From NCBI GenBank assembly GCA_028824015.1, contig JAPPFC010000036.1, positions 124,001 through 188,000 of the forward strand: a DNA stretch of 64,000 nt. Direction: 5' to 3'. A model generated the notes under the pieces. The model did no database searches. It saw only the letters and a program-made list of their open reading frames with translations, and was not told the DNA's origin. The stretch is from a bacterium (lineage in GTDB: Bacteria; Actinomycetota; Acidimicrobiia; Spongiisociales; ZC4RG35). A program made the translations under genes and the position numbers. Shown one piece after another: positions 34,673 through 51,224 of this stretch. Every line of letters begins with the position of its first letter. The stretch's first letter is position 1.

Positions 34673-35014
34673 TCAAACGCACGGTGCGATCACCTCCCCC
34701 AGATCAATCACGGTGGCCGTTGCGAACGACCTTTCGTATGTGGCCTGCACTGGTGACAACCCCACCCACAGTTGCGGTTCCCACTCGTGGGAGACCGTGA
34801 CTCTCATTCTCCCATCGGCAGTCAGGCACACCCGGTCATCGCCGGTGCAATCGTCCCCAGCCACCACACAGTTCTCCGTCAGGTCGGCTGCGACCCGTTC
34901 CGCCCGCTCCCGCACGATGTCCGTGTACTGCACATACCGGGCGTAGTCGCCCAACATCGAAGCCAGCAACAGCGCCGCCTGGGCTATCACCAACGCCAGC
35001 AAGCCCGTCCCCAT
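34673..35014 (-). CDS. TadE-like pilus assembly protein, minor pseudopilin
   Basis: 113 residues: one N-terminal hydrophobic helix (GTGLLALVIAQAALLLASM) and an extracytoplasmic domain with three cysteines (ENCVVAGDDC, DRVCLTADG). This is the size and layout of the small TadE/TadF-like proteins that help start Flp pili. AGGAG precedes the ATG at 35012-35014. It is the last gene of the pilus operon. Confidence 0.7.
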   Translation of the reverse strand: MGTGLLALVIAQAALLLASMLGDYARYVQYTDIVRERAERVAADLTENCVVAGDDCTGDDRVCLTADGRMRVTVSHEWEPQLWVGLSPVQATYERSFATATVIDLGEVIAPCV

Positions 35015-35023
35015 CTTCGCTCC

Positions 35024-35344
35024 TCACGGTCCAGGCGCATACAGGGCCGTGGCCCGGCTGGCGGCGCATGTCACCACCACACCCACCTGCTCGGTGTTGT
35101 CCCACTGCCTCGGCAACCGAACCGTGGGATTGGAACAAACCCCGAACAGCACCCGGGCGACCGCCTCCTCCGCCGCAGCCTGCGCCGCCGGCCGCCCCGG
35201 ATGGGCGGCGGCCGCTGCCGTCGCTCTCTCGGCCGCTAGCAACACCCTCCCGTCCACCATCGACTTCTCGCCGGCATGGTGCAACATCGCCACGCACAGC
35301 GCCACCACCCCCACCACTTTCAAGAGCCCCAGTGCCTCGCTCAT
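35024..35344 (-). CDS. TadE-like pilus protein, paralogue of its upstream neighbour
   Basis: 106 residues from ATG 35342-35344 (MSEALGLLKVVGVVALCVAM); the upstream extension in frame is shadow of the next gene. One N-terminal helix, an Ala-rich segment (AAERATAAAAA) and a C-terminal domain with two Cys (VLFGVCSNP, VVTCAAS). The opening MSExLGxLK and the following layout match the neighbour at 35346-35783, so the two arose by duplication. Confidence 0.65.
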   Translation of the reverse strand: MSEALGLLKVVGVVALCVAMLHHAGEKSMVDGRVLLAAERATAAAAAHPGRPAAQAAAEEAVARVLFGVCSNPTVRLPRQWDNTEQVGVVVTCAASRATALYAPGP

Positions 35345-35345
35345 C

Positions 35346-35783
35346 TCACTCAGACACGAAGGTCCCGCACAGGGGAGGCTCTCCGAAGGGATCAACCCCC
35401 ACCGGCGCACAGCTCGTCGCTCCGGCGGGCAACATTCCTCTCGCCCCCCGGGCCACAGTCCGCACCGTGACGCCCACCCAGCATTCGGTCGGGTGGGCGA
35501 TTACCTCCACTCCGGTCAGGTTCACCTGCCGCAATGCGCCGGCCAAGCCCAGGGCGGTCAACACGGCAGCTTCCTCGGCGGGGGCCCACAAAGGATCCCC
35601 CTCGGTGCAGTCCCACGTGCGGTCGCTGTCACTCCGCAGCACCTTCACGGCCGCCGCGGCAGCAGCAGACGCCGCGCCGGCAGACGCCGACCGGGCCAGT
35701 TCACGTAAGAACACCGAGAACAGCATCCCCAGCAGCAACAGCATCGCCGTTCCCGTCTTCAGGAACCCCAGCCACTCGCTCAA
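35346..35783 (-). CDS. TadE-like pilus protein
   Basis: 145 residues: N-terminal hydrophobic helix (GTAMLLLLGMLFSVFL), an Ala-rich helix (ASAGAASAAAAAAVKV) and a domain with cysteines in TWDCTEGD, PTECWVGV, ATSCAPVG and PPLCGTF. Similar in design to its downstream paralogue. Stop and next start nearly touch (TGAGATG). Probably a minor pilin or assembly factor. Confidence 0.65.
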   Translation of the reverse strand: MSEWLGFLKTGTAMLLLLGMLFSVFLRELARSASAGAASAAAAAAVKVLRSDSDRTWDCTEGDPLWAPAEEAAVLTALGLAGALRQVNLTGVEVIAHPTECWVGVTVRTVARGARGMLPAGATSCAPVGVDPFGEPPLCGTFVSE

Positions 35784-35819
35784 AAGGGCCTCTGTCTCCC
35801 CGTGGTACTCCCGGACCGA

Positions 35820-36029
35820 TCAGGCACAGGGCGGGGTGTTGGCCGCAGTCCAAGTACCACCCGCCAGTTCGCAGGTGGTCTGGTTGTTGATCAGGGACAG
35901 GTCCACACCTTGATCCACGTCTATGTCCTCACCCATCTCATTCGCAACGCCCCAAACCACCGCGGTAACCATTGCTCCCAGCGCCAACACCATCAACAAT
36001 CGCGCCAGGGCGCCTAACCAACCGCTCAT
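35820..36029 (-). CDS. 69-residue Flp-pilin candidate
   Basis: One hydrophobic helix (LLMVLALGAMVTAVVWGVA) followed by a short exported tail with two cysteines, Cys53 and Cys68, in the module CELAGGTW...PPC. Its place directly after tadC is where actinobacterial Tad loci keep the major pilin. It lacks the usual Glu-Tyr of Flp pilins, so the call rests on position, size and topology. The cysteine module recurs in the large lipoprotein at the head of this operon. Confidence 0.55.
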   Translation of the reverse strand: MSGWLGALARLLMVLALGAMVTAVVWGVANEMGEDIDVDQGVDLSLINNQTTCELAGGTWTAANTPPCA

Positions 36030-36055
36030 ACCTTCTCCTTTCCGGTTGCCTTACA

Positions 36056-36787
36056 TCAGAACGTGAAGGTGGCGGACACCACCGCAAACATCAACACGGC
36101 AACAGCGATCATCACCGAGGTGGCTGCCGCTGCCTCCACAGACCGTCCCAGCCGTTCCACCTCCTCACGCCTCGTGGCCGACAGTTCCCTCACCACGTCG
36201 GCCAACACCTCGTCGATCTGCTCCATCACCCTCCCCCCAGACCTGTCAATGGTGGACAGCATGGAGACCATCGCCTCCGCAGGGGAACCCCGCAGTACCT
36301 TCTCCACTGCATACAGGGGGTTCTTTCCGCTGCTCAACGCCCGGCTGATCGCTGACTTCACCGGCCCGAACGCGCGATCCTGGACTTTCTCCGCCGCTTC
36401 CACCACCGCCGATTGGAGCGGGTCGGCAGACCCTGATGCCAACCGCACGCCCCGAAGCCACTTCAACAGTGCCCTATCCCGCGCCGGCCCGAACCCGCCC
36501 AGCACACCGGCCCGCAGCGTCGCCACCACGATGCGCCCCAACCAATTCATGGCCGCCACCAACCACACGAGCGCCGGGCCAAACCCGACCACCGCCCACA
36601 CCAGGCCACCTACGCCCAGACCGATCGCCACCGTCACCGCCCACCCCACCGCGGTAACCCGCCCGGGCGGCCACCCCATGGCCGTCAACGCCTCAGCCTC
36701 CCGCACCGCCTGCGGAGGCGCCAGCACCACGGTCGCCACCCCAGCCACCATCAGTCCCGCAACAGCCCACGCCTCCCAAGCAATCAT
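36056..36787 (-). CDS. tadC: Tad pilus inner-membrane platform protein (TadC-like)
   Basis: 243 residues with the type II secretion F domain: hydrophobic N-terminus, cytoplasmic helical core (LQSAVVEAAEKVQDRAFGPV, SMLSTIDRSGGRVMEQIDEV) and a C-terminal transmembrane segment (SVMIAVAVLMFAVVSATFTF). It works with TadB as the base driven by TadA. It follows tadB by 7 bp. Confidence 0.85.
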   Translation of the reverse strand: MIAWEAWAVAGLMVAGVATVVLAPPQAVREAEALTAMGWPPGRVTAVGWAVTVAIGLGVGGLVWAVVGFGPALVWLVAAMNWLGRIVVATLRAGVLGGFGPARDRALLKWLRGVRLASGSADPLQSAVVEAAEKVQDRAFGPVKSAISRALSSGKNPLYAVEKVLRGSPAEAMVSMLSTIDRSGGRVMEQIDEVLADVVRELSATRREEVERLGRSVEAAAATSVMIAVAVLMFAVVSATFTF

Positions 36788-36794
36788 CGGGCGT

Positions 36795-37607
36795 TCACGT
36801 CCTCAGAAACGCGGTGGCAGCACCCGCCATCCTCTTGACGTTCAGGCTGGCTATCACCGAGGCCGCCAGCACAATCCTGTCTCCGGGGCCCGCAATCCAG
36901 GCCCCCACCTCCGGATACAACCACCCCGACGCGCCTACCGTCGCAGCGCCCGCCGCCAGCATGAACATGGCCGTCGGCATCTTCGCCGCCACCTGCTTCC
37001 TCAACTCCCGCAGAATCTCTGCCTCCTGAACGGTTTCAGACCGCAGGATCCGCAACGCGTCCGCCCACCTTCCTCCCCCCGTCGATGCCTTAACCAGGAT
37101 CATCCCCAACCACGCTCCCGCCGGCGCGTTGACCTCAGTCACGAACGTTCCCGCCGCAGCCACAATCCCACGCCTGCTGACAGTCCTCCCCAACTCCGCG
37201 GCGGCCTCGGCCACCGGGCCGGACACCAGAGTTCCCGCCTGACCTACAGCCTCCTCCACGGTATGAGCAGTCCTCGCCTGGCTGGCCAGAACCGTGGTGA
37301 AAACCGCCAACGACGCCACCATGCTCACGCTCCGCCGGATCTCCCGGGCCGCCAGCCACAACGCCACACATCCCCACGCCACCATGCCCACCGCCAAGGC
37401 CAGCTCAACCGACCGGAACCGCCACAACGCCACAGCCACAACGGCGGCGGGAACCCCGTACATCTCCACCAAGCGCCGCAACCGGCCCTGGGTCCGCACC
37501 CGCCCTACCTCAGTAGGCACCTGCACCGTCAGGCTCGACGGCTTCCACATCACCGCTCCCACCACCAGCACCACAGCCACCAGGACCACCCAGCCCCGAA
37601 GGTTCAC
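36795..37607 (-). CDS. tadB: Tad pilus inner-membrane platform protein (TadB-like)
   Basis: 270 residues from GTG 37605-37607 (NLRGWVVLVAVVLVV), overlapping the tadA stop by 4 bp. Two N-terminal and two C-terminal hydrophobic segments flank a T2SSF core (WLGMILVKASTGGGRWADAL, AEILRELRKQVAAKMPTAMF). Partner of TadC. Confidence 0.85.
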   Translation of the reverse strand: MNLRGWVVLVAVVLVVGAVMWKPSSLTVQVPTEVGRVRTQGRLRRLVEMYGVPAAVVAVALWRFRSVELALAVGMVAWGCVALWLAAREIRRSVSMVASLAVFTTVLASQARTAHTVEEAVGQAGTLVSGPVAEAAAELGRTVSRRGIVAAAGTFVTEVNAPAGAWLGMILVKASTGGGRWADALRILRSETVQEAEILRELRKQVAAKMPTAMFMLAAGAATVGASGWLYPEVGAWIAGPGDRIVLAASVIASLNVKRMAGAATAFLRT

Positions 37608-39136
37608 AACGCCACCCCCACCGACTCGTAAAGATCCGCCATCCGCCCCTCCGGCCTCCCGGTCGGAACCGCCCACCGATCTCCCGGCTTCCACTTCCAC
37701 AACCTCCGGGTGCGGATAAGCCCCGACCTCTCGTCGATACCCAACACCTGGGTCACATCCGCCACCACCCGCTTGTCCTGCTCGTTCCGGCCCATCCACA
37801 CCAACAAGTCCACGCCGTTGGCGATCTGACGCTTCGCGTACCTCTCCGTCGCCCCCTCGCTGGTGGCATACTGCACCAGCTTCTGCAGCATCCCCGCCCC
37901 CGGTGGGCTGTGAATGGTCGCCAAGCACCCCACCCATCCCGACGAGAACGTGTCCAACATGGCCTCCGTACCCGGCCCGCGAATCTCCCCCACAACCACC
38001 TTGCTGCTGTTGGCCCGCTTGGCGGCTCGAATGTGATCCGCCATCGAATACACCGCCACACCCTCCTGGTTCTCGTCCCTCGTGAACCGCGCAATCGTGT
38101 TCTCATGTATCCCGTACTCCGCCAGCATCAGTTCCCTGGTGTCCTCGATCGTGTCGATCCGTTCCGACTCCGGCACCTCCCCGCAAATGCACTGCACAAC
38201 CGTGGTCTTTCCCCCGCTCGGAGGTGACGCCACCACCACATTCGCCCGAGCGTCACCCGCCGCAGCTCCCGCCAACAGCGACAACAACACGTCATCGGCG
38301 ATCCCCAGTTCCTCGAGAGTCTTCGTGCCGCCCATGTTGTGACGCAACACCGCATTCGGCGGGCTGCTCACAAACCCCTCCCCATGCAACCTCCAACGGG
38401 GCGCCAACTGCATGTCCAGCATCGGACGCATCGGAGAGAACAGCTTCTTCGCGCCCCCATGCGACGCCACCGTCCTCAAGGTCTCCAACAGGTCGGCATC
38501 CGTCGGAAACGGCGACGACCGCTTCTCCCGCTCCCCGTTCGCCCACAGCAGGTACATACTCTGCGAACCTCGGATTTGTATCTCCTCAACACCCTCCAAG
38601 GCGATCAACTCGTGGAACGGCTCGCTGGCCGCCGACACCGCCCCCCGCCGACGCTTCCGCCCGTCCGCCTCGTCCAACCGATGCGCCTCCGACGCCTTCC
38701 AAGCCAACCACTTCCGCACCCGCCGGATCTTCCGTAACTCGCTCTTGGTTCCCTCCGCCGACACCGACAACACCCAGGACGCCGCCACCTGAATCTTGAT
38801 CTGCGCCTCGTCCACCGCCTCGTCGGTCACCATCACCACCCCCAACTCAACCCTCCCCCCGGCACCCTGCAATCCCAACATCTTCCGGATCCCGACCGGA
38901 GGCTGCGTCGTCACCGCCACAACCCCCATCGCCTCCGCAGCCGTCTGCCCCAATCGCTGATTCGGCGCATCCGAATACGCCGCCACAATCTCCGCCGACG
39001 CCAAGGGGTCCGGACTGTCCCACCCCAACCCGACGTCACCGCCCAGCACCCGCTCGGCCGATCTCACCATCTCCGCATGCACCCAGGTCGCCACCCCCTT
39101 GGTCTCCAACGCCCGATCAAACACCACGAACAGCAC
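37604..39136 (-). CDS. tadA: Tad pilus assembly ATPase (TadA/CpaF)
   Basis: Hexameric secretion ATPase that powers pilus assembly, about 510 residues. The frame also offers TTG 39188-39190 but that overlaps the previous gene; GTG 39134-39136 follows CAGGGG and is preferred. Motifs: ATP loop ASPPSGGKTT, Asp box DTIEDTRELML, and VVVGEIRGPGTEAMLDTFSS with GCLATIHSP. The first Gly of Walker A is replaced by Ser. The N-terminal half is less like other CpaF proteins. Confidence 0.9.
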   Translation of the reverse strand: MLFVVFDRALETKGVATWVHAEMVRSAERVLGGDVGLGWDSPDPLASAEIVAAYSDAPNQRLGQTAAEAMGVVAVTTQPPVGIRKMLGLQGAGGRVELGVVMVTDEAVDEAQIKIQVAASWVLSVSAEGTKSELRKIRRVRKWLAWKASEAHRLDEADGRKRRRGAVSAASEPFHELIALEGVEEIQIRGSQSMYLLWANGEREKRSSPFPTDADLLETLRTVASHGGAKKLFSPMRPMLDMQLAPRWRLHGEGFVSSPPNAVLRHNMGGTKTLEELGIADDVLLSLLAGAAAGDARANVVVASPPSGGKTTVVQCICGEVPESERIDTIEDTRELMLAEYGIHENTIARFTRDENQEGVAVYSMADHIRAAKRANSSKVVVGEIRGPGTEAMLDTFSSGWVGCLATIHSPPGAGMLQKLVQYATSEGATERYAKRQIANGVDLLVWMGRNEQDKRVVADVTQVLGIDERSGLIRTRRLWKWKPGDRWAVPTGRPEGRMADLYESVGVAL

Positions 39137-39153
39137 CGGCCACCACCCCTGAT

Positions 39154-39723
39154 TCAGCAGCCCGGCCAGCCCACCGCCGGCGACTCCCAAATAGCCAGGG
39201 TCTCCAACCCCTCCCCCGCCAACCGCGCCACCATATCCGGATCCACCTCCAACGTCACATCACCAGGATCCACTGCTCGCAACTCCGCAATCAACACAGC
39301 ACATCCACCGGGCCGCCGCCCGAACACCGCCACATCACCAGCCCGCGGGCCCGGCCCGGCCCACAACGACGCGTCCACCGGGAACCGCATCAACGTCGCC
39401 GTCTCATCGTCGGGCGCCAACTTCTCTTCCACCAACACCGCTGCCGGCACCACCACCCCATCCGGCAACGCCACCGACGACACCGCCCCGCCCGACAGCA
39501 TCTCCCGCGTAGCGAACAGCGGCGCCAACGACTCCGGCACCGGCACAACCACAAACTCGCCCACCTCCCCGGCACGCCACTCCCCGATCGTCACGGCCAC
39601 ATCCACCGTCGGTTCCTCATCAACCGTCCCCAGCAACCAAATGGAGACCACGCCCGCCACCAACGTCGCCGCGATCCACGCCCACTGGGCGGGAGCCAAT
39701 CCCAAAACCCGCGACTCCAACAT
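39154..39723 (-). CDS. SAF-domain pilus protein (CpaB/RcpC-like)
   Basis: 189 residues: an N-terminal transmembrane segment (WAWIAATLVAGVVSIWLLG) and an extracytoplasmic part with the SAF pattern (FATREMLSGGAVSSVALPDG, LMRFPVDASLWAGPGPRAGD). CpaB-like proteins assist pilus passage through the envelope. The start directly abuts the upstream gene stop (TAGATG). The C-terminus (GCAVLIAELRAVDPGD) is short compared with CpaB. Confidence 0.75.
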   Translation of the reverse strand: MLESRVLGLAPAQWAWIAATLVAGVVSIWLLGTVDEEPTVDVAVTIGEWRAGEVGEFVVVPVPESLAPLFATREMLSGGAVSSVALPDGVVVPAAVLVEEKLAPDDETATLMRFPVDASLWAGPGPRAGDVAVFGRRPGGCAVLIAELRAVDPGDVTLEVDPDMVARLAGEGLETLAIWESPAVGWPGC

Positions 39724-41100
39724 CTACTCATCACCTCCAAACCCTGTTGTGGTCCGCTCCCAGTCCGAATAGTCCACCAACCTTCGCACCATCGACACCC
39801 CCGAATGCAACCTCACCAGATCCGTGCTCACCTCGCCATCATCCGTTGTCTCCACCCGGGCATGCAGCGACCACTCCCACACCGCCGTATAGGGCACAAA
39901 GAAAGCACACTCTCCCTCCGGATCCGCCTCATCCACATCACACCACTCCGAAGGATCAGGATGGTCCCGTTCCAACGCCTCCCAGCGAACCCGCGTCTCC
40001 TCCTGCTGCTCAACCGACATCCGATTCCACCTATCCACCCAATCCTGAGCCACCCTCCCGATCTTCAACCGCTCCGTATACGACCACGGCTTCAGCGAAT
40101 TCCACCTCGACCACGTCTCCACCGGATACCACCAACACCCGGCATCATCCTCCACCGCCGCCGCGGACGCGCCATCAGCCACCGGCCACACCGGCGGCTC
40201 GGCCGACGCAGGCGACGAGATCTTATCCGACGCAATAAACCAATACGACCCGCCCGCCTGGGGAGGCTCATCACCAGCCCACACCGCATCAACCGACCCA
40301 TCATTGGCAAAAGACGTCTCCCAACCCACCAAATCACCGATTGAATCCCGCAACTCCTGCTTTTGGTTCGACGACAACCCGCTCGAACACACCAACGGCA
40401 CCCCCGTAGTGGTAGTAGTCGCCCGAGTAGTGGTAGTAGTCGTTGTGGTTGTGGTCTTCGGACACGGCGGCACCGTCCCCGTCCGATGTCCCCCACCCGA
40501 GTGATAGGTATACGTCTGCGACACCCCCTCCTTGCAGGACGGCCGGGGAGGATGATTCGCATGACATCCAGACCCATTCCGATGGGTCCCACTCGGACAC
40601 GGTGTGGGATCGGGCGGCGACGGGCGCGTCGTGGTGGTCGTCGTAATGGGCGCACGCGTCGTGGTCGTCGTAATGGGCGCACGCGTCGTAGTCGTCGTAA
40701 TGGGCGCACGGGTAGTGGTCGTCGGTACGTGGGTGTGAGGGACGTACTCCCGACAGTCCGACCCCAGGCCCCCAGCCCAAAAGCCCGAACACTCCAGCCG
40801 CTTATGGATGAGGATATTTGAACAGGCGGGGTCCGAGCCGGGAGTGCATGGCACCATGACAATCCAGACCTCCCACTGTTCGCACTGGCCGTACCAGTCC
40901 CACGAGAGGCATCTGCGGCGTTCCTCGGGTTTGGTCCCGACATATGTGGTGGTCTGGGTGACCGTTCCCGGCCGGGTTCTGGTGTCCGCTTCGGACTGTT
41001 CAGGTAACGGGAGCAACACCAGAACCACCGCGGCGGCCAGCACCAGACCCGCCGACCAGAGAATGGAGCGGTAACGCTGACGGACCTGAGCGGGAGTCAC
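39724..41100 (-). CDS. Anchored surface protein with threonine-rich stalk and CPxGTH module
   Basis: 458 residues: N-terminal transmembrane anchor (15-32), a cysteine-rich segment (about 64-116), a first Thr-rich stalk (about 126-160, units of APITTTTTR), the module CPSGTH...CHANH (168-183), a second Thr run (about 215-232) and a C-terminal domain of about 220 residues. The Thr stalks would hold the C-terminal domain away from the membrane and could be O-glycosylated. The start overlaps the upstream lipoprotein stop by 4 bp. No known family; likely a pilus-associated surface or adhesion protein. Confidence 0.75.
   Translation of the reverse strand: MTPAQVRQRYRSILWSAGLVLAAAVVLVLLPLPEQSEADTRTRPGTVTQTTTYVGTKPEERRRCLSWDWYGQCEQWEVWIVMVPCTPGSDPACSNILIHKRLECSGFWAGGLGSDCREYVPHTHVPTTTTRAPITTTTTRAPITTTTTRAPITTTTTTRPSPPDPTPCPSGTHRNGSGCHANHPPRPSCKEGVSQTYTYHSGGGHRTGTVPPCPKTTTTTTTTTTRATTTTTGVPLVCSSGLSSNQKQELRDSIGDLVGWETSFANDGSVDAVWAGDEPPQAGGSYWFIASDKISSPASAEPPVWPVADGASAAAVEDDAGCWWYPVETWSRWNSLKPWSYTERLKIGRVAQDWVDRWNRMSVEQQEETRVRWEALERDHPDPSEWCDVDEADPEGECAFFVPYTAVWEWSLHARVETTDDGEVSTDLVRLHSGVSMVRRLVDYSDWERTTTGFGGDE
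40644..40724 (-). repeat. 27-bp tandem repeat encoding the threonine-rich stalk
   Basis: Three units with a 27-bp period starting at 40644, 40671 and 40698 (plus-strand core TAATGGGCGCACGCGTCG). The last unit is slightly diverged. Because 27 is a multiple of three, copy change would lengthen or shorten the stalk without a frameshift. Confidence 0.8.
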
Positions 41101-42797
41101 GAGGGAGGCACCCCCGAATACTCACCCTCGAGGCGGGGCAGGCCCCTATCCAACCGGTACAGGGTATTCGGATCATCATTTGCGCGGGGGTCGACGTAAT
41201 ACCGGCGGGTGTTGGGTGGCGGGAGAGACTGGTCAAAGAACCGCGAGTCGGGGAAATGGGGAGTGGGATCGTCAGGACACCGTAACTCCTTTTCCGGGAC
41301 ATAGTCCGGAAAGTTCGGGATGGTGTGGTCCATTCTGTCGCAGAAATCTCGGTAGGACTGCCGCCACGTGCCGTCCGCGGTGCGAACCATCAGCGTCTCG
41401 GTCCATTCCACGGGCCCTCCGAGTTGGAAGTCTCCCCGGAGGCGCTCCTCCGACACTTCCCGGCCATGGGCGGCGCTCCATTCGTAATAGCGGATGGCCG
41501 CCTGCCGTTCCTCCTCGCTCAAATCCCGCACCGGCCAAACCGCTCGCCACTCGAGCAGGATCATCGACGCCTGCGCAAAACCTCCCCGCCACTTGACACC
41601 CCTGATCTCGATGGCTTTCGCCGCCCGACCGACAGGTCCCATCCCCGAAGCTATGAACGGGTCCTGTATGTTGTCCACCGCCTCCAACAGGTCGGCAAGG
41701 ACCTGGCCATCCCGCACGGCGGCCATCCGCTGCTCGAGCGCGCCCGACCAGGCGTACTCGATAGCGGTCCGGACGGCTTGGAGAGTGCAAGGATCCTCGA
41801 CCGGTTGGTTCTTTCTCCACACCTCCTCCACCGGTGGGCATCCCCGCCCCAGAGCCTGAGCGGTCCCGGGAAAGCGCGGCTCCGAAAAAGGCGTGGTGGG
41901 ACGGATCGGAGGCCCCAGCGGAAACTCAACACCCCAGTCCGCGGCCCATGAACCGCCGACGCGGGTGACGGCCACCGTCAACTCCTCCCCAAGAGGGAAG
42001 GTGAGCATGACCGCTATCCGGTTCGGGTACTCGACCCAGGCCACGTCGTAGCGGTAGGGGAAGTAGATCCCCCCAATCATCTGCAACTGAACATTGTGGA
42101 CGAGTTGGATCGCCTGCCAGAACGTCTCCCGTTCCGCGGTGCTGTCCTCCCGGAGGCCGTGATAAAAGCGGTAAAAGCGATAGGTGCCCCAGTCACGCTC
42201 GGACTCGTTCAGATGCCAATCATCCGCGCCCACAAAATGCGGATCAACCCGCGCCACCGCTTCATCGATCAAACCGGGCCGCCACCACTCGACCACCAAC
42301 TCGTCTGCACTCCCGCTCCTCTCCGCCACTTCACCCTGCACATGCTCCTCCAAGGGTTCTTCTCGGTCTTGATCCCCCTCCGGTTCGGGATGGGGATCCT
42401 GCGCCGTGGCCAGGGGCCCGCATTCCTGGGTGTCTGTGTTCCATCCTCCCCCGGCGGCCTCACAGACATCAGCGGACAGGAGAGCTTCGAGGATCACGAT
42501 GCCGGCCTTGGCTACTTCCTCGGGTGTGATCGGTGTGTGGCCTCGGTGGTCGGGATGGCACTCCCCGCCTTCGTGGGCGTGGGTTCCCACCGGGCACTCG
42601 TCTTCGACCGCCACCTCAGCGAGGTCGCTCTCGACGTCAGCCCGTTCTGCGGGTCTTTGGGTGGTTGGGGGAAGCAACCGAGGTGGGACCGTGTTGATGG
42701 TCGTGGCAGGCGCCGGTTCGGTGGTGGGCGGGTGGGCGTCACCCCCGCAGGACGCCAGTACGAGGGCCATCAGGGTGATGGCTCGGGTGGTTGTCAT
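41097..42797 (-). CDS. Large lipoprotein of the pilus operon with two cysteine modules
   Basis: 566 residues from ATG 42795-42797; the lipobox LVLASC puts the lipid on Cys17. A Pro/Thr-rich linker follows, then the module CPVGTH...CHPDH (68-84), then CEAAGGGW...C (112-126), then an acidic linker and a long domain (about 160-566) rich in Trp/Tyr with paired Cys. No family recognised. The first module recurs in the next gene, the second in the 69-residue pilin candidate, tying all three to one structure on the cell surface. Confidence 0.75.
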   Translation of the reverse strand: MTTTRAITLMALVLASCGGDAHPPTTEPAPATTINTVPPRLLPPTTQRPAERADVESDLAEVAVEDECPVGTHAHEGGECHPDHRGHTPITPEEVAKAGIVILEALLSADVCEAAGGGWNTDTQECGPLATAQDPHPEPEGDQDREEPLEEHVQGEVAERSGSADELVVEWWRPGLIDEAVARVDPHFVGADDWHLNESERDWGTYRFYRFYHGLREDSTAERETFWQAIQLVHNVQLQMIGGIYFPYRYDVAWVEYPNRIAVMLTFPLGEELTVAVTRVGGSWAADWGVEFPLGPPIRPTTPFSEPRFPGTAQALGRGCPPVEEVWRKNQPVEDPCTLQAVRTAIEYAWSGALEQRMAAVRDGQVLADLLEAVDNIQDPFIASGMGPVGRAAKAIEIRGVKWRGGFAQASMILLEWRAVWPVRDLSEEERQAAIRYYEWSAAHGREVSEERLRGDFQLGGPVEWTETLMVRTADGTWRQSYRDFCDRMDHTIPNFPDYVPEKELRCPDDPTPHFPDSRFFDQSLPPPNTRRYYVDPRANDDPNTLYRLDRGLPRLEGEYSGVPPS

Positions 42798-42871
42798 TAG
42801 GGGGGTTCTCGTTGTTGAATCTTCAGCCGCGATACACCGTGCTTGAACACGCCCTAGCCGCTTCCGCTCCA

Positions 42872-43759
42872 CTAGCCCACCACCAGGGAGATCAGTTCCG
42901 TCACCGGATAAGCGTCGGTGGAATAGGTGCTGGGGATCCTCAGGGTCTTCATCCCGCTGCCCACGGCGTACCAGCCCGACCAGACGAAGGAGGTTACGAT
43001 CTCATACGCGCCGATCCCGGTCCGGCATCTGGGGCCGTCTTGGTCGCAACTCTTGGTCTGGTATGTGTGGCTCGCCACGCCGTCCGGATAGCCCGTCAGC
43101 CGGGTGTGGAGAGCTTCGCCGAACACCTGGGCGGGACCGTCATCCCAGTCGATCCTCGCCTGGCTCACTTTCACCTCTGCCCTTAGCGACCGGCCGGTGT
43201 AGGGAGACGTCGAAACATAGACCCAGGGAGCGGGTGTGCCCAGGGCGGCGAAAGTCTCGATCCCGACCAGGCCACGGGGATATGCAGGGTTGAAGGAGAC
43301 CTGGGGAGCCTGATGGGTGTAGTCCCCGATCTCGCTCCAGACATACCCCTCGATTTCCTCTCTCTCCACACCCGTCCAGGAGCACCGGGGGGCCGTTCCC
43401 ACCACCCTGTGCCCACCCGGTCTCCCATTGGGAGCCCAGCCATAGGTCAGATCACCGTTCCTGTGGAGCTCCAGAAACACCCACTGAGTGGGTCTGGTTC
43501 CCATATAGAAACACCCGCGGGAGCTGATTTGGAGATCGAGCCTGCCAAAAGAGGGCGTGTAACTGGAGCCTTGGCGGTCGGTGTGGATACAGGATGTCAC
43601 GGGATAGACCTCGTCTGTCTCCTCGTCGACTGCCGCACTGACCGTGCACACTCCCTCCGAATGGGAAGGCGGAGCCGCCCAGGCGGTCAAGTTCTGGGCC
43701 AGCACGGAGGCGAGCAACACCCCGCACCCCCACACTTTCAAAACCCTGGGGACGCTCAC
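42872..43759 (-). CDS. Secreted protein at the head of the pilus operon
   Basis: 295 residues from GTG 43757-43759, chosen for the RBS AGGGAAGAG and a proper Sec signal (VWGCGVLLASVLAQNLTAWA). The mature part is beta-rich with cysteines (GVCTVSAA, VTSCIHTD, RGCFYMG, APRCSWTG, KSCDQDG, PRCRTG) and includes YVWSEIGDYTHQAP, which is repeated in a decayed copy near 47.9 kb. No known family. Being first in the operon, after a long leader, it may be a pilus-associated adhesin or cap. Confidence 0.75.
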   Translation of the reverse strand: MSVPRVLKVWGCGVLLASVLAQNLTAWAAPPSHSEGVCTVSAAVDEETDEVYPVTSCIHTDRQGSSYTPSFGRLDLQISSRGCFYMGTRPTQWVFLELHRNGDLTYGWAPNGRPGGHRVVGTAPRCSWTGVEREEIEGYVWSEIGDYTHQAPQVSFNPAYPRGLVGIETFAALGTPAPWVYVSTSPYTGRSLRAEVKVSQARIDWDDGPAQVFGEALHTRLTGYPDGVASHTYQTKSCDQDGPRCRTGIGAYEIVTSFVWSGWYAVGSGMKTLRIPSTYSTDAYPVTELISLVVG

Positions 43760-43883
43760 TGGTCTCTTCCCTCCGTCAACCTCGGCACCAGGATCTCCGA
43801 ACGTTGCCTTCGTGGGAGAAAAGGCAGAGGTGGCGAATGTCCACTCCGGACCAAGGGAGGAGTCCGGACACCCGCATCCACCC

Positions 43884-43966
43884 GCCACCAGGGCCGACAT
43901 TCCCCGTTTTACCGTTGTAGCCGGCCAACTTGCCCCTGCCTTTTCACTGCCCCTCCTCTCGGTGGC
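43884..43966 (-). promoter_or_regulatory. Candidate folded RNA element in the pilus operon leader
   Basis: Read on the minus strand. Outer stem GCCACC (43961-43966) with GGTGGC (43884-43889); inner stem GGCCGGC (43920-43926) with GTCGGCC (43892-43898, one G-U). Between them lies AGTGAAAAGGCAGGGGCA, unchanged in both repeat copies. It sits in a predicted leader of about 210 nt. It does not match the cyclic-di-GMP-I, SAM or cobalamin riboswitch signatures I know. Confidence 0.4.
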
Positions 43967-43982: not shown

Positions 43983-44023
43983 TACGTCGTAGCGCCCCGG
44001 AGGAATGAATCGGCGAGGGTTGT

Positions 44024-44051
44024 GTCGCGACCTTCCAGGACTTTTCGCGAC
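44024..44051 (-). terminator. Relic hairpin, copy A
   Basis: GTCGCGA-14-TCGCGAC, a 7-bp perfect stem. The same dyad is found 38 bp after the intact aminopeptidase stop in copy B, so it is probably the old aminopeptidase terminator. Confidence 0.45.
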
Positions 44052-44096
44052 GGTCAACCGGCACCGACCCGGCGGGCCGGGAGGGTCCGGCCGGCC

Positions 44097-44190
44097 GCCA
44101 TCCGTGCGGCCAGTTCCACCATCACCACCTCCACCGTCTTGGCGTTACGGGCGCCGGACCACCTCCCGGGCGGTGTGGACATCGAGGGAC
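44097..44190 (-). pseudogene. Remnant of a third M17 aminopeptidase gene
   Basis: The first about 25 bp (CCGCCATCCGTGCGGCCAGT) match the aminopeptidase 3' end at 48312-48331. The rest (CACCTCCACCGTCTTGGCG onward) matches the internal NGKTVEVxNTDAEG-coding region found near 48.77 and 50.24 kb. So the piece is an aminopeptidase 3' part with a large internal deletion. The position of the stop codon is mutated. Confidence 0.7.
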
Positions 44191-44253
44191 CCACGCACGC
44201 GAAGCCCGCTCCGCCACCGACTTAGGCCACGGCTTCGGGGTAAGGTAGAAAAC

Positions 44254-46725
44254 ATGGGCTGGTCGCGACGAGAGCCTCGAGGAGTCAAAGGGCGGGGCAG
44301 GGAACGGCATCGCAGCGCATTGGTGCTGCTGGCCCTGTTCCTTTTGGTGGTTGCCGCCTGCGGCTCCGACGACGAGTCCGCCTCAGAGGATTCGGCCGCG
44401 GCATCGGCCAGTGCCGCCGTGGCGGCATCGGAAGCAGCAGCAGAGGAGGCGATGGCCGCCGAGGAGGCAGCGGCGGCCGCGACAGCAGACGAGGCAGTGG
44501 TGTCCGAGGATGCCGCGACATTGGAGGAAGTGCAAGCGGAACTGGCCGGTACCCAGGCGGCAACCGGGTCGGCGAACGCCGAGGCTGCTGCTGCGGCCGA
44601 AGCAGCGGCGGAGGCGGCGGCAATGGCCGCGGAAGAGGCGGAAATGGTCGCAGAGGACGCGATGGCGGCCGAGGAGGAGAGCGAGGTCAGCTCTGTTGAC
44701 GACACCTCGGCAGGCGCGGTGGTCGAGTTGTCGACCGCCAACTCCCCCGCGGCCTTCGGGCGGGACGTTATCTACCGAGCCTGGGTTTCGGTGGAGGCGC
44801 CGGACGTGGCGGCCGCCACCAACCAGGCCATATCAATCGTCCAGGGATTGGGCGGGTTCGTGTTCGGGCAGCAGACCCGGTCCAGGCCGTCGGCATACTC
44901 CGAGATCGTCTTCAAGGTGCTGCCGGAGGACTTCTCGGTTGCGCTGGCGAGGCTCTCCCAGGTAGGTGAACTGGTGGACCAGCAGATCAGCGCCGACGAC
45001 GTGACCGACCGGATCGTCGACCTCCAAAGCCGGATCACCACCGCCCAAGCGAGCGTGATCCGGCTGCGCAGCTTTTTGGAGACCGCCACCAACTTGGAGA
45101 ACGTGGCCTTCTACGAGGGGGAACTGCTGGTCCGGGAGACCGACCTGGAGAGGCTGAGGGGCCAGGTGCGCACCCTGCAGGACCAGGTTGCGCTGGCCAC
45201 CATCACCCTGGCGATCAGCCAGTTGCCCGACCAACCGATAATCCTCCCCAACACCGGACTCCTGGTCACCGCCTGGATGTCAACCGGCGGTGAGGACCCC
45301 TGTTTGGGATCCAAGAACATCAACGTCCGGCGGGACGACACGGTCAACTTCTGCGTGGAAGTGGCCAACAAGGGCGAGACAGTACTCACTGATGTGGAGT
45401 TGAACTCCGACGTCCTGCTGCTGGATATAAACCCGTTCGTGCTGGAGCGGGGAAGCTTCAACCGGGTAGAGCCTGGACAGTTTCTCACAGCCACCCTCAC
45501 CGAGGAGATGATCAAGGGCCGCCTCGCCAGCCGGATCGCAACCCGAGGCCTGGAGATACTGATCGAAGCCACCGCCACCCCGGGGGACGCCGCCGGCGGT
45601 GCGCTGGGAACCATCTCCGACCGGACCCGGATCACCGTGACCGCACGAGAGGTGACACCTAATCCTGGCATCTTCGTACATGCCTGGGTTTCCAGTGACG
45701 ATGACGATCCATGTCTCGGCGCCAAGACCGTCACCGTCCAGCCCGATGACGGCATTGTGAATGTCTGCGTCTTTGTTGGAAACCCCGGTAACGCCCCGAT
45801 CACCGATGTAGAGGTCCAGTCACCGGCTCTGGACCTAGGCGCTAACCCGTTGACCCTCGAATACGGCGCGTTCGAGCGGATAGAACCCGGCCAGTTCCTC
45901 ACTGCCACGCTCACCGAGACCGTACAGAAGGGTCGCTTCAACGGCCGCGTCGCCATCAGAGGCCTCGACATCGAGATAGCTGCGAACGCCACACCTCTGG
46001 ATCCTGACGGAATTCCTCTGGAAGACGTCTCCGACACCACCGGGGTGACCGTGACGGCGCAGGAAATACTCCCCAACACCCTCATGCAGGTCACTGCCTG
46101 GGCCTCAGCCGACAACGACGACCCCTGCCTGGGTTCGCGGGACATCTCCCTGGAGCCCGAGGACGACCGGGTGAACTTCTGTCTGGAGATCGGCAACCTC
46201 GGCGACACCACCCTCACCGACATCATGATCCAGTCCCACAGCCTCCCGCTGGAGGAGAACCTCTTCGCACCCGATCACGGGAGCTTCGAGCAGATCGAGC
46301 CCGGGGAGTTCCTCACCGCCACCCTCACCGAGTCGGTGGAGAATGGGCGTATGGCGGGTCGGCTCGCCGTCCGCGGCATCGACGTGGAGATCACGGTCAC
46401 CGCCACGCCGGTCGACCCCGAGGGGGTCGTCCTGGACGACACCCTGGCCTCCACCCAGGTCATGGTGCATGTGGAGGCGGATCGAAGGAGCGACGGCGCC
46501 CCGACCGGATTCGGCGACGCCCTCGATTCCAGCGCGGAGGCGCTGGTTGCCGTCCTGGGCGGGCTGGCGGTGGTGATCGGCGTCCTGATCCCGTTCCTGC
46601 CGTTCATCGCCATCGTCGTGGCCATTCTCTGGTGGAGGCGCCGCCGCAGGCGTCGCACAGCAACGCCGACACCGATGGAACCGGAGATGGCGGATGCGAC
46701 GGTCGAGACCGGGGACCGCGACTAA
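44254..46725 (+). CDS. DUF4349 lipoprotein with three inserted beta-rich repeats
   Basis: 823 residues from ATG 44254. Lipobox VVAACG puts the lipid on Cys36. Residues 40-150 are almost pure Ala/Glu/Asp, probably a long helix. DUF4349 covers about 165-325 (YRAWVSVEAPDVAAATNQA through QVALATITLAIS) with a coiled coil near 250-312. Three repeats of about 140 residues follow from near 337, 480 and 620, each with AWxSxxxDDPCLGxK, a second Cys in VNFCVEVxN and EPGQFLTATLTE. A C-terminal transmembrane segment (AVLGGLAVVIGVLIPFLPF) and Arg-rich end close it. Ordinary DUF4349 proteins are about 300 residues and lack the repeats. Confidence 0.85.
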   Translation: MGWSRREPRGVKGRGRERHRSALVLLALFLLVVAACGSDDESASEDSAAASASAAVAASEAAAEEAMAAEEAAAAATADEAVVSEDAATLEEVQAELAGTQAATGSANAEAAAAAEAAAEAAAMAAEEAEMVAEDAMAAEEESEVSSVDDTSAGAVVELSTANSPAAFGRDVIYRAWVSVEAPDVAAATNQAISIVQGLGGFVFGQQTRSRPSAYSEIVFKVLPEDFSVALARLSQVGELVDQQISADDVTDRIVDLQSRITTAQASVIRLRSFLETATNLENVAFYEGELLVRETDLERLRGQVRTLQDQVALATITLAISQLPDQPIILPNTGLLVTAWMSTGGEDPCLGSKNINVRRDDTVNFCVEVANKGETVLTDVELNSDVLLLDINPFVLERGSFNRVEPGQFLTATLTEEMIKGRLASRIATRGLEILIEATATPGDAAGGALGTISDRTRITVTAREVTPNPGIFVHAWVSSDDDDPCLGAKTVTVQPDDGIVNVCVFVGNPGNAPITDVEVQSPALDLGANPLTLEYGAFERIEPGQFLTATLTETVQKGRFNGRVAIRGLDIEIAANATPLDPDGIPLEDVSDTTGVTVTAQEILPNTLMQVTAWASADNDDPCLGSRDISLEPEDDRVNFCLEIGNLGDTTLTDIMIQSHSLPLEENLFAPDHGSFEQIEPGEFLTATLTESVENGRMAGRLAVRGIDVEITVTATPVDPEGVVLDDTLASTQVMVHVEADRRSDGAPTGFGDALDSSAEALVAVLGGLAVVIGVLIPFLPFIAIVVAILWWRRRRRRRTATPTPMEPEMADATVETGDRD

Positions 46726-47074
46726 CCGGTCTCTCGCGGTCCGGGTGGAGAATCCTTGCGACCACCTTATTCGATGTCTTCAATCTGCAAGGTGACGGGG
46801 CATGGAGGGCAGGATCTTGGATTGGGGCTCCTTGAGAGCCGCATTCTGCTCGGTTCAGGAAGTGCCTGTCCAACGATCCCTGCGACACCGAACTCGAGGC
46901 CCTGTCCCATCGTCACCTGCAACAACAGTACGTAGGAGTATTAGCGAAATGGCCCCAATCCGACAATAAGACGAGGGGCTCATTATCGCGAACGGTTAAA
47001 CCGACACCAGCTTCGCAAAACAGGCATCGCATCAATCTCGTGCGGGTACAGAAAGCGGTGTCCCACGAAACACC
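46726..47074. other. Intergenic region, no gene seen
   Basis: 349 bp after the DUF4349 gene, locally less GC-rich (ACAATAAGACGAGG, ATTATCGCGAACGG), like the two small genes that follow. No terminator, tRNA or repeat recognised. Confidence 0.4.
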
Positions 47075-47455
47075 TCACCGAGTGGTTGTCTCCTCCTCTC
47101 CCCTTTGCCTCTTGTGAAAGAACCGACGCCAAGTCGGCCTTAACCCATCCAGATCATCCATTAAAACTGGTGTCAGACCCAGATCACTCGGTGGTCGTTC
47201 GGCCCGAGTGGGATGCAATTGGTCCAGAAGGTGGATCAGGTTTGCCTTGAAGAGGAGATCGGGATCATGGGTGTATATCCCCACGTCTCGCACCAAATGT
47301 TTGATCTCCACTAGTCCGTGGTGGTCGAACCATGCTTTTGTGATACGCCTTACCCTCCACTCATGGCGTCTGCTTCTTATCCATTCCACTGTGAGTAGGG
47401 TTGTGACACCGCCCAGGTATCCCCCTAGGACAGCAAGAATCGTCTCTGCGCTCAT
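47075..47455 (-). CDS. Small membrane-anchored hypothetical protein
   Basis: 126 residues from ATG 47453-47455 (MSAETILAVLGGYLGGVTTL). One N-terminal hydrophobic segment, then a basic cytoplasmic domain (WIRSRRHEWRVRRITKAW ... PTWRRFFHKRQRGEEETTTR). The ribosome site would be in the end of the upstream gene. The lower GC of this gene and its neighbour, compared with the rest of the window, suggests recent acquisition. No family recognised. Confidence 0.6.
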   Translation of the reverse strand: MSAETILAVLGGYLGGVTTLLTVEWIRSRRHEWRVRRITKAWFDHHGLVEIKHLVRDVGIYTHDPDLLFKANLIHLLDQLHPTRAERPPSDLGLTPVLMDDLDGLRPTWRRFFHKRQRGEEETTTR

Positions 47456-47457
47456 CC

Positions 47458-47736
47458 CTATGGCAAGTTGGCGAGGACGGCAACACCCAAAGCAATCACT
47501 ACACCGGTGATCCAAGCACCGACCGCGATCTGCCAGCGAATCACTTTGTAGCCTTGTCTGGAGAGAGCAACTTCCAGATCGTCTTTTGTGACTAACGCTG
47601 TCTGGCTATCGACAAGAGTTTCCACCACAGCCTCGGCCTGTGATCTGGTGAATTCGTTGGACTCTAATCGGCGAGTGGCAGCCAGCGTATCAAACGAGGT
47701 ACGGTACGTAACGTCATGGATCGCAGGAGCGGTCAT
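47458..47736 (-). CDS. DUF1640-like coiled-coil protein with C-terminal membrane anchor
   Basis: 92 residues. FDTLAATRRLESNEFTRSQA and EAVVETLVDSQTALVTKDDL follow the DUF1640 pattern (FDTxxxxxxLxxxGFxxxQAEA), then a predicted helix and a C-terminal transmembrane segment (WQIAVGAWITGVVIALGVAV). Bacterial members are small and of unknown function. Its start overlaps the stop of the upstream chimeric ORF by 4 bp. Probably co-transcribed with the next small gene. Confidence 0.7.
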   Translation of the reverse strand: MTAPAIHDVTYRTSFDTLAATRRLESNEFTRSQAEAVVETLVDSQTALVTKDDLEVALSRQGYKVIRWQIAVGAWITGVVIALGVAVLANLP

Positions 47737-47972
47737 ACCAACGATGATAGGTCATCCCATCCCGGAGGCTGATCCCTATAGACGATTATCAGATTGTCAC
47801 TCAACTTGACCGGGTAGCGTCTCTTGGTGTCGTTCTTGGTTTTGGCGCTCCTGCCCCGGGGAGCCTGATGGGTGTAGTCGCCGATCTCGCTCCAGACATA
47901 CCCCTCGATCTCTTCTCTCTCCAATCCGATCCAAGAGCACCGACGGGCCTTCAATACCCTGGGGAAGCCCAC
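47733..47972 (-). pseudogene. Decayed and chimeric copy of the pilus-operon secreted protein gene
   Basis: From GTG 47970-47972 the frame starts GFPRVLKARRCSWIG, like the intact gene (SVPRVLK...CSWTG) but with about 345 bp removed, and keeps YVWSEIGDYTHQAP. After about 47855 the homology stops and an unrelated tail (YPVKLSDNLIIVYRDQPPGW) leads to a TGA that overlaps the next start. It has no signal peptide. An expressed fusion of 79 residues is possible but a relic is likelier. Confidence 0.7.
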
Positions 47973-48096
47973 GGTTCCCTTCCGCTTGGTCAACCTCCCC
48001 ATACGGGCTCTCCGGTCTTTGCCTCGGTGGGGAGGGCAGGGGTGGCGGATGTCCACTCCGGACGAAGGGACGAGGAATCCGGTCACCCGCATCCAC

Positions 48097-48301: not shown

Positions 48302-49759
48302 CTAGCCAGCCGCCATCCGTGAGGCCAGTTCCACCAGGGTTCGCACTCCGAATCCTGTGGCGCCCGCCGCCAGGTAGTGCTTGGCGTCCTTGGTCTTGGC
48401 CGGTCCCGGTATGTCAAGGTGTGCCCAGGAAACGTCGGCGGTGAACTCCTTCAGCACCAGTGCGGCGGTGATCCCGCCGGCCCAACGGCCTCCGGTGTTC
48501 TTCATGTCGGCCACCGGGGAGTCGAGCAGCTTGCGGTACTCGGGGGGCAGTGGAAGCGGCCAGACCTTCTCCCCTGCCGCCGTCGCCGCGTCGGCCACCA
48601 TCCTCCTGGCCTCCTCGGTACCGTAGAGTCCCGCGTATCTGAGGCCGACCGCCACCGCGGTGGCTCCGGTCAGGGTCGCCACGTCCACCAACAGGTCCGG
48701 TGATCCTTCAACCCCCAGGCTCAGAGCGTCCGCCAGGACCAGTCGGCCCTCGGCGTCGGTGTTCACAACCTCAACCGTCTTCCCGTTGCGGGCCGTGAAC
48801 ACATCTCCCGGGCGGGTAGCCCCGCCTCCCGGCATGTTCTCGGCCAGAGCGGCCAGCACCTCCACCCTCACCCCCAAACCGAGCCGGCTTATCGCCACCC
48901 CGGCAGCCGCCACCGCCGCAGCCCCGGACATGTCGAACTTCATCAACTCCTGGTTCTTGGCAGGCTTCAGGGACAGCCCTCCCGAGTCGAAGGTAATTCC
49001 CTTCCCGGCCAGGGTTAGCCGGGGACCCTCGCCGGGTCCGATCATCCGCACCAGGCGAGGGGGGCGATGCGATCCCCGTCCCACCGCCATGATCCCTCCC
49101 ATCCCCTCCGCGGTGAGTTTCTTCTCATCCCAGATCTCCACGGTCATGCCCGCCTCGGTCGCCAGGGCGGACATGGAGGCGGCGAGGTCGGCGGGACCCT
49201 GGTCCTGGGGAGGCTGGTTCACCCAGTCCCGGGCGGCGTTCACCGCCTCGGCCACCACCCGGCAACGCTCTACAGTCTCGGTCCAATCGGGAGGGACCGG
49301 AGCGGCCAATCCCACCCCCGGCACCGGTCGGTCGGACGGGCTGCTCCGGTACTCCTCGTATCGATAGCCGGCCAGAAGCGACCCCTCCACGGTGGCCGCC
49401 AGCGCACCGGGCGTCGACATCTGATGAAGGGTGGTGACCAGGCTCCCGGCCCGCGGAGCGGCCCTGTAACCGCTGCCCGCGGCCCTGCGCACGGTCTCAT
49501 GGTCGGGATCGTCGCCCACCCCCACCATCACGACCCATCGGTATCTGATCCCACCCGCGGTGGGGATCACCGCCACCTCACCCGGCTCGCCCGAGAAACC
49601 CACCCCCTCCAGGTGCTCGCCGATCCACGATCCCAGTCGTTCCAGCACGTACTCGGCGCCCGGCCCCGGCGCACGGTCAGCGCCCATGGGGACCACCAGC
49701 ACCGGCGCCTCCCCATCGGGTACGGCCGCGGCCGAACCTATGTCCGGGAGTCCTGTCAC
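48302..49759 (-). CDS. M17 leucyl aminopeptidase, copy 1
   Basis: About 485 residues from GTG 49757-49759 (TGLPDIGSAAAVPDG), which matches the ATG of its paralogue. Cytosolic zinc/manganese aminopeptidase: Lys and Asp in GKGITFDSGGLSL, Asp in MKFDMSGAAAV, Asp/Glu/Arg in NTDAEGRLVLADAL. All ligands are intact. It starts 5 bp after the stop of copy 2 in the same operon. The two copies are similar along their whole length, a tandem duplication. Confidence 0.92.
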   Translation of the reverse strand: MTGLPDIGSAAAVPDGEAPVLVVPMGADRAPGPGAEYVLERLGSWIGEHLEGVGFSGEPGEVAVIPTAGGIRYRWVVMVGVGDDPDHETVRRAAGSGYRAAPRAGSLVTTLHQMSTPGALAATVEGSLLAGYRYEEYRSSPSDRPVPGVGLAAPVPPDWTETVERCRVVAEAVNAARDWVNQPPQDQGPADLAASMSALATEAGMTVEIWDEKKLTAEGMGGIMAVGRGSHRPPRLVRMIGPGEGPRLTLAGKGITFDSGGLSLKPAKNQELMKFDMSGAAAVAAAGVAISRLGLGVRVEVLAALAENMPGGGATRPGDVFTARNGKTVEVVNTDAEGRLVLADALSLGVEGSPDLLVDVATLTGATAVAVGLRYAGLYGTEEARRMVADAATAAGEKVWPLPLPPEYRKLLDSPVADMKNTGGRWAGGITAALVLKEFTADVSWAHLDIPGPAKTKDAKHYLAAGATGFGVRTLVELASRMAAG

Positions 49760-49763
49760 GTCT

Positions 49764-51224
49764 CTAACCCTCGCTCGCCATCCGTGAGGCAAGCTCGACC
49801 AGGGTCCGAACCCCGAATCCGGTACCGCCCTCTGAGATGTAGTGCTCTTTCTTGGCAGATCTGGCGGGCCCGGCCACGTCCAGATGCGCCCATGGGACGT
49901 CGGCGGTGAATTCCTTCAGCACAAGTGCGGCGGTGATAGCGCTACCCCATTGACCCCCGGTGTTCTTCATATCGGCCACCGGCGAGTCGAGCAACTTGCG
50001 GTATTCGGGGGGCAGGGGAAGCGGCCAGACCTTCTCGCCCGCCGCTTCGGCCGCGCCGGCCACCGCTCTCCTGGCGTCCTCGGTTCCGAAGAGCCCGGCA
50101 TATTCGAGACCGAGGGCTATCTTGCAGGCGCCGGTCAGGGTGGCCAGGTCAACCATCAGGTCCGGCGCTCCCTCCGCTCCGAGACTGAGGGCGTCCGAGA
50201 GGACCAGCCGACCCTCGGCGTCGGTGTTCAGCACCTCCACGGTCTTTCCGTTGCGGGCGCGGAACACATCCCCGGGGCGGGACGCCCGCCCGCCCGGCAT
50301 GTTCTCGGCCAAGGCCGCAAGCACCTCGAGTCGCACTCCCAGACCGAGCCGGCTGATGGCCGCACCTGCCGCGGCTGCCGCGGCCGCACCAGCCATGTCC
50401 GTCTTCATGGCCTCCATCATGCCGGGGGTCTTGAGGGAGAGCCCGCCCGAATCGAAGGTGATGCCCTTCCCCACCAGGGTCAGTTTCGGACCTTCGCCAG
50501 GCCCGACCAACCGGACCAGGCAAGGAGGGCGATGCGAACCCCGCCCCACCGACAGGATCCCGCCCATCCCTTCCTCCTCCAGCTTCTCCTCATCCCAAAT
50601 CTCGACGGTCATCCCCGCGTCGGTCGCCACCTCCGACATCGAAGCCGCCAGATCGGCGGGCCCCTGATCGAGGCCGGTCTGGTTGACCCAGTCCCGAACG
50701 TTGGCCACCGCCTCGGCCACGATGCGGCCCCGCTCGGCCGCATCGGCCCAATCCGACGGCAGAGGGGAAGCCAGCAACACCTTCGCCAGAGGCCGGTCCG
50801 ACGGCTCGCTCCGATAGTTGTCGTACCGGTAGCCGGCCAGGAGCGACCCCTCCACGGTGGCAGCCAGGGCGCCGGGAGTGGATACCTGGTGGAGGGTGGT
50901 GACCAGGCTCTCGGTCCGGGGAGCGGCCCGATAGGCAATGGCCGAGGCTCTTCGCACCGTCTCATGATCGGGATCGTCGCCCACACCGGCCATCACCACC
51001 CAGTTGTAACGCAATCCACCCCCGGTCGGGATCACCGCCACCTCCCCGGGCTTACCGGAGAAACCCACTCCTTCCAGGTGCTCCTCCACCCACGAACCCA
51101 GTCGATCCAACACGTACTCGGCGCCCGGCCCCGGCTCCCGGTCGGCCCCCATGGGGACCACCAGGACCGGCGCTTTACCGTCGGAAACCGCCGCGGCCGA
51201 ACCTATATCAGGAAGTCTTGTCAT
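49764..51224 (-). CDS. M17 leucyl aminopeptidase, copy 2
   Basis: 486 residues from ATG 51222-51224 (MTRLPDIGSAAAVSDGK). Motifs GKGITFDSGGLSL, MKTDMAGAAAAAAAG and NTDAEGRLVLSDAL are complete. The N-terminal part (VPMGADREPGPGAEYVLDRL) is shared with copy 1. It lies downstream of MFS and EamA transporter genes on the same strand with a 42-bp gap, so one transcript is likely. Peptide use or glutathione-conjugate breakdown are family-level guesses. Confidence 0.92.
   Translation of the reverse strand: MTRLPDIGSAAAVSDGKAPVLVVPMGADREPGPGAEYVLDRLGSWVEEHLEGVGFSGKPGEVAVIPTGGGLRYNWVVMAGVGDDPDHETVRRASAIAYRAAPRTESLVTTLHQVSTPGALAATVEGSLLAGYRYDNYRSEPSDRPLAKVLLASPLPSDWADAAERGRIVAEAVANVRDWVNQTGLDQGPADLAASMSEVATDAGMTVEIWDEEKLEEEGMGGILSVGRGSHRPPCLVRLVGPGEGPKLTLVGKGITFDSGGLSLKTPGMMEAMKTDMAGAAAAAAAGAAISRLGLGVRLEVLAALAENMPGGRASRPGDVFRARNGKTVEVLNTDAEGRLVLSDALSLGAEGAPDLMVDLATLTGACKIALGLEYAGLFGTEDARRAVAGAAEAAGEKVWPLPLPPEYRKLLDSPVADMKNTGGQWGSAITAALVLKEFTADVPWAHLDVAGPARSAKKEHYISEGGTGFGVRTLVELASRMASEG

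Follow-up and report, generated by a model that had tools for sequence, protein, structure and literature searches.

The window, that is, the whole stretch of 64,000 nucleotides analysed (G000:C39:124001-188000, from a MAG of 2.9 Mb that is 95% complete), carries a cluster which is best explained, with a probability of about one half, as encoding a divergent Tad-family machine resembling type IVc filaments. This machine would be exchanged with conjugative elements and be present here as a stand-alone chromosomal module. Judged from its sequence, the cluster is no ordinary Tad pilus locus and may have been acquired as part of a machine for mating or attachment; an adhesive or secretory function is plausible. 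The main oddity, namely that all of the subunit candidates are without a peptidase leader, had been half seen in the initial annotation.

Gene content of the cluster

Eleven ORFs, all on the minus strand and mostly abutting or overlapping as first described, were located at 34673-43900 between ligA and a DUF4349-like gene. Besides TadA, TadC and a TadB paralogue, they encode a weak SAF protein, three exported proteins and four small proteins with a single helix:

42872..43900, minus strand: P342, exported protein, probably a neighbour and not core (homologue of G002 lies across the DUF4349-like gene)
41097..42797, minus strand: P591, lipobox protein (LASC) with Cys/His motifs and a C-terminal NTF2-like domain
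39724..41100, minus strand: P458, with an N-terminal membrane helix, a Thr-rich stretch and a conserved C-terminal domain
39154..39723, minus strand: short SAF/CpaB-like protein with one membrane helix, a weak SAF domain and a C-terminal domain
37604..39136, minus strand: TadA-like ATPase, P-loop ASPPSGGKTT without the first Gly, GEIRG and ATIHS retained
36795..37613, minus strand: TadB-like platform protein
36056..36787, minus strand: TadC-like platform protein (T2SSF)
35820..36029, minus strand: G8, leaderless one-helix protein of 69 aa with an external C..GGTW..C loop, candidate major subunit
35346..35783, minus strand: G9, leaderless one-helix protein with a TTG start
35024..35344, minus strand: G10, leaderless one-helix protein, start revised
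34673..35014, minus strand: G11, leaderless one-helix protein

The initial recognition of tadA, tadB and tadC was borne out. TadA matched T2SSE (50.8 bits) and TadC matched T2SSF (26 bits) in Pfam, while TadB, with no Pfam match, is taken as a T2SF paralogue because the TadC query also matches the TadB of a congener (E 6e-4). The two T2SF-type platform proteins of a Tad pilus are thus present. In congener G003, TadB carries a frameshift and has lost approximately 80 codons (L037 2350-2960, G003:C31), which speaks against the machine proposed here. The predicted start of TadA, earlier called at 39190, should be revised to approximately 39136, where its homologues begin, giving 510 aa. The start of G10 is most likely at 35344, one base past the stop of G9, with a product of 106 aa and not 128. 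For the SAF protein, the label first given is weak: PF08666 was matched in one of eight homologues (E 0.0024), and hhalign of the SAF family against a single canonical protein returned a probability of 9.7% with small alignments. The C-terminal domain of this protein is repeated in some relatives. No promoter was found in a sigma-70 promoter scan.

Values of dN/dS against congener G005 ranged from 0.05 to 0.45 across the genes (G9, 0.045; TadA, 0.09; TadC, 0.10), so the genes are under purifying selection, and all eleven frames are intact in both G000 and G005. Given these values and a gene order that is kept in distant relatives, the ORFs are not due to chance. Genes in the relatives were called with a simple codon-score script rather than a standard gene finder; the genomes of Acidimicrobiia are apparently MAGs, and start codons are predicted.

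Small proteins G8-G11

Upstream of G8, G9 and G11, the in-frame stop is reached after 7, 12 and 3 codons respectively, with no ATG, GTG or TTG among them, and a ribosome-binding-like sequence lies directly upstream of G8 and G11. For G10 of the window, two upstream starts are possible, and the 128-aa version results from the first; reading back yields no prepilin motif. When the motif was scanned for more widely, it was detected in 9 of 14 canonical proteins versus 3 of 30 proteins of the clade, with leaders being found by the same scan in the other Tad clusters of the window's own genome. The three clade proteins, all homologues of G10, were rejected as their apparent leader is read through non-start codons; one of them has a TTG just two codons upstream, but no start is far enough. 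All lineages examined have subunit candidates without a leader, no upstream start giving a class III signal peptide. The start and leader scan also upheld the description of the 69-residue G8 as being without the Flp Glu-Tyr signature, and found it to be without a class III leader.

Profiles for TadE, Flp and class III gave no match in the three small proteins scanned (G9, G10 and G11), so the label "TadE-like" first given to these three proteins is based on their size, their position and the one helix at the N-terminus. A comparison of the G9 and G11 families with a single canonical TadE-type protein (hhalign, small alignments) showed no profile similarity, and the putative identity of the subunits therefore rests on position and topology. 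Two features of a Tad pilus are accordingly absent: a Flp major pilin with a class III leader and Glu-Tyr, and TadE/TadF pseudopilins with a leader and a TadE profile. G10 begins with M-S-E in the window and with M-D-E in distant relatives, and several homologues begin M-D-E-A/S, with an acidic residue at helix positions 2-3. This residue may stand in for Glu +5 of mature pilins.

Prepilin peptidase, secretin and TadZ

As first noted, the cluster is without a prepilin peptidase or secretin gene. The search for TadV and TadZ elsewhere in the genome, which had been proposed as a check, located a prepilin peptidase (Peptidase_A24) outside the cluster, at G000:C21. A TadZ-like ParA gene was found only in another Tad cluster. 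The genome has two canonical Tad clusters (G000:C60 and G000:C15) with leader-bearing Flp/TadE proteins, TadZ being in C15. TadV can be encoded apart, so a missing peptidase gene is by itself ordinary. Peptidase_A24 was detected in G000 as well as in each of the 17 other carriers checked; peptidase absence therefore failed as a test of leader independence, and independence is not readable from it. Every carrier genome checked also has other T2SSE ATPases. For the secretin (RcpA) there was no match past the cut-off, which is expected in a monoderm lineage (PMC6668835).

Phylogeny of TadA

A tree of 49 TadA rows separates the 19 members of the clade, all from Acidimicrobiia, from the rest by a branch with 100/100 support and a long stem. 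The first glycine of the P-loop is replaced by Ala or Ser in 19/19 of these proteins versus Gly in 30/30 of the others, and GGKTT is common to the clade. On its sequence, TadA is a predicted ATPase of a separate lineage with an altered P-loop. Judged by their pattern, its N-terminal 190 residues may form a receiver-like domain. The named relatives of the window TadA (91-96% identical) are from MAGs titled Acidimicrobiia or "bacterium"; as read from their isolate names they come from marine sponges, and the window bacterium is probably sponge-associated. A search of viral contigs gave no relatives, and a search of named plasmids with the window TadA gave one distant match (31%). TadA-like genes of G035, G034 and G026 were considered as candidates and rejected, as they belong to canonical CpaB-TadZ-TadA clusters with leader-bearing proteins.

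Large exported proteins

Three large exported proteins had been placed before the ATPase in the initial annotation; two of them, P591 and P458, do travel with the module as frequent partners, whereas P342 is probably a neighbouring gene. P591 also occurs as orphan copies, several of which are paired with P458. Extra P591 copies without Tad genes, several with a P458-like partner, were seen at L091-L095 (G005:C106, C67, C8 and C97; G002:C69). The C-terminal domain of P591 resembles NTF2-like folds in a predicted model of middling confidence (MTB12, Z 8.4; TcpC, Z 7.3; many others at approximately 7). This is a common fold and no function follows from it. A PDB sequence search with P591 gave no match. 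The model of P458, also of middling confidence, showed no convincing fold, and in L088/L089 its homologues carry what by eye are Ig-like repeats instead of the Thr-rich part.

P342 had no match beside the module in G058:C47, and in congener G002 its homologue is found beyond the DUF4349-like gene. A truncated P342 copy was observed at 47733-48002 of the window, within a GC dip (46001-48000, 59% GC), and G002 has a full-length homologue at the place of this remnant. The remnant and the position of the G002 homologue are the reasons for which P342 was left out of the core. A relationship between P342 and the exported protein of PKD type found next to other Tad loci was considered and is not supported. 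Of the neighbouring genes, 44005-46725 encodes the DUF4349-like exported protein with similar repeats of approximately 100 aa (HAWVSSDDDDPCLG type), and 48302-51224 holds two adjacent, very similar genes for leucyl-aminopeptidase-like proteins of approximately 485 aa; both were assigned by eye.

Distribution and linkage to conjugation genes

A profile search found the SAF marker in 9 of the 138 genomes from the order and in 18 of the 395 from the class, spread over five genera; in the window genus, five of the six genomes retain it. The order P458-SAF-TadA-TadB-TadC-G8, together with the small proteins, is kept in Acidimicrobiia loci whose TadA is approximately 45-50% identical to that of the window. 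A rare, distinct TadA clade with a gene order conserved even among distant relatives agrees with the initial suggestion of a lineage-specific apparatus, and gene order had been named there as something to check. The module is stand-alone in the window genus and also in conserved chromosomal neighbourhoods of genera g125 and g166; in the L087 genome it adjoins rpsF-ssb-rpsR-rplI-dnaB-like genes (named from sequence, no family search). In the one-contig genome G351:C1, a second copy of the cluster at approximately 3,199,000-3,219,000 (L143, L146) adjoins about eight paralogous genes in tandem, each for an exported protein of approximately 350 aa.

On three contigs the module is accompanied by type IV secretion (T4SS) genes, a linkage that is independent of binning. 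G058:C47 carries an AAA_10 VirB4-like protein, a TraG/VirD4-like coupling protein and a lytic transglycosylase (SLT); G058:C49 carries a VirB4 relative (52%); G070:C88 carries VirB4, VirB6-like, SLT and VirD4 relatives. A class II ribonucleotide reductase gene was also observed on G058:C47 (L052 9346-13176), in addition to the T4SS genes and the cluster. A search of the window genus for VirB4 found no relative. Between the window and G058:C47, which are from different families, TadA is 90% identical versus 60% for LigA, which points strongly to horizontal transfer provided that G058 was binned correctly, and the window copy has probably moved in this way. Congener G002 has an empty site, in which ligA is followed directly by the DUF4349-like gene; comparison with this site showed no clear target duplication, and no tRNA genes were found as integration sites beside the elements.

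Alternative explanations and proposed mechanism

Were this an ordinary Tad/Flp pilus locus, its subunits would be processed by the TadV encoded elsewhere (C21). The usual order of TadA, TadB, TadC, SAF protein and small one-helix proteins, and the Peptidase_A24 of G000 and of 17/17 other carriers checked, fit such a locus, but it is made very unlikely by G8-G11 without a leader and cleavage motif (G8, G9 and G11 also having no upstream start codon), by the lack of TadE, Flp and class III matches in the proteins scanned and by the separate TadA clade. It is unlikely, if less so, that a short pseudopilus of G8-G11 pushes out P591 and P458 in a T2SS-like secretion device with no long filament. 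Both proteins often accompany the module and have lipobox or exported features, and extra orphan copies exist in G005 and G002. However, with its lipobox P591, and with its membrane helix P458, would need no such device to exit the cytoplasm, and the orphan pair of G002 is in a genome without a TadA of this clade.

The linkage to VirB4 on three contigs and VirD4 on two, the same layout on a Kitasatospora plasmid and the requirement of tad loci for transformation of Micrococcus luteus (PMC8467076) could also point to part of a mating-pair or DNA-uptake apparatus, the stand-alone copy serving for uptake as in M. luteus. This is considered quite unlikely, as the window genus has no VirB4 relative and the module stands alone in conserved chromosomal neighbourhoods of two other genera. 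That same lack of VirB4, with the frameshifted TadB of G003, might suggest a decaying relic of a conjugative element with no present function. Such a relic is extremely improbable in view of the eleven intact frames in G000 and G005, the low dN/dS of TadA, TadC and G9 and the retention of the SAF marker in 5/6 genomes of the genus.

For the preferred reading, a divergent Tad-family machine shared with conjugative elements, a mechanism can be proposed from knowledge of the family. The TadA ATPase would drive the TadB/TadC platform to assemble the small subunits, with G8 as the putative main subunit and G9-G11 as minor ones. G8-G11 would insert directly, N-terminus inside and C-terminus outside, with no cleavage by a prepilin peptidase. 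The SAF protein may be an envelope-side adaptor, and P458/P591 may act at the surface, where the machine would present or release them for attachment to other cells, the targets being mating partners where the module is T4SS-linked and neighbours or the sponge surface where it is stand-alone. It is tentatively suggested, at less than even odds, that this represents a sub-type of the type IV filament superfamily with subunits made ready without a leader/peptidase step, with a modified-P-loop ATPase and shared between conjugative elements and chromosomes.

Comparison with known systems

Actinobacterial Tad/Flp clusters, including G000:C60 and G000:C15, have the same order of TadA, two T2SF proteins and small one-helix proteins, and in G000:C15 a CpaB/SAF gene lies upstream as it does in the window cluster. 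The window cluster differs from these in having no class III leaders and no TadZ, in its TadA of a separate clade with an altered P-loop and in its extra large surface proteins. Removal of the leader by prepilin peptidase counts as one of the core steps in the assembly of type IV filaments (PMC6668835), and a conserved Tad-like lineage with all of its subunit candidates leaderless offers a test of whether this step is dispensable.

Precedents are published both for tad loci without prepilin motifs and for T4SS-linked tad loci. Some clostridial tad-like loci have homologues of tadA and tadC but no protein with a prepilin leader (PMC3244431); compared by description, these are from another phylum and include tadV and tadZ. 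In Cutibacterium acnes, a linear plasmid has VirB4 and TcpC genes next to a tad locus in which the N-termini of TadE2-4 are reported not to be signal peptides (PMC5696575). This locus is likewise compared by description, and its TadE1 keeps a possible prepilin site, unlike the window candidates. Plasmid NZ_CP108405.1 of Kitasatospora sp. NBC_01302 has a T4SS and a SAF-CpaF-T2SF-T2SF-TadE-TadE region with a layout like that of the T4SS-linked module: TcpC-like, VirB4-like and NlpC/P60 genes are followed by SAF, TadA, TadB, TadC, a 67-aa protein and TadE-type proteins. The small proteins of this plasmid keep class III leaders, unlike those of the window cluster; in addition, the TadZ position is occupied by a gene, the cluster ends with a LysM protein, and P591/P458 are not annotated. 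The link of the present module to conjugation genes opens a way into the question posed for the C. acnes plasmids, namely whether Tad loci take part in DNA transfer (PMC5696575).
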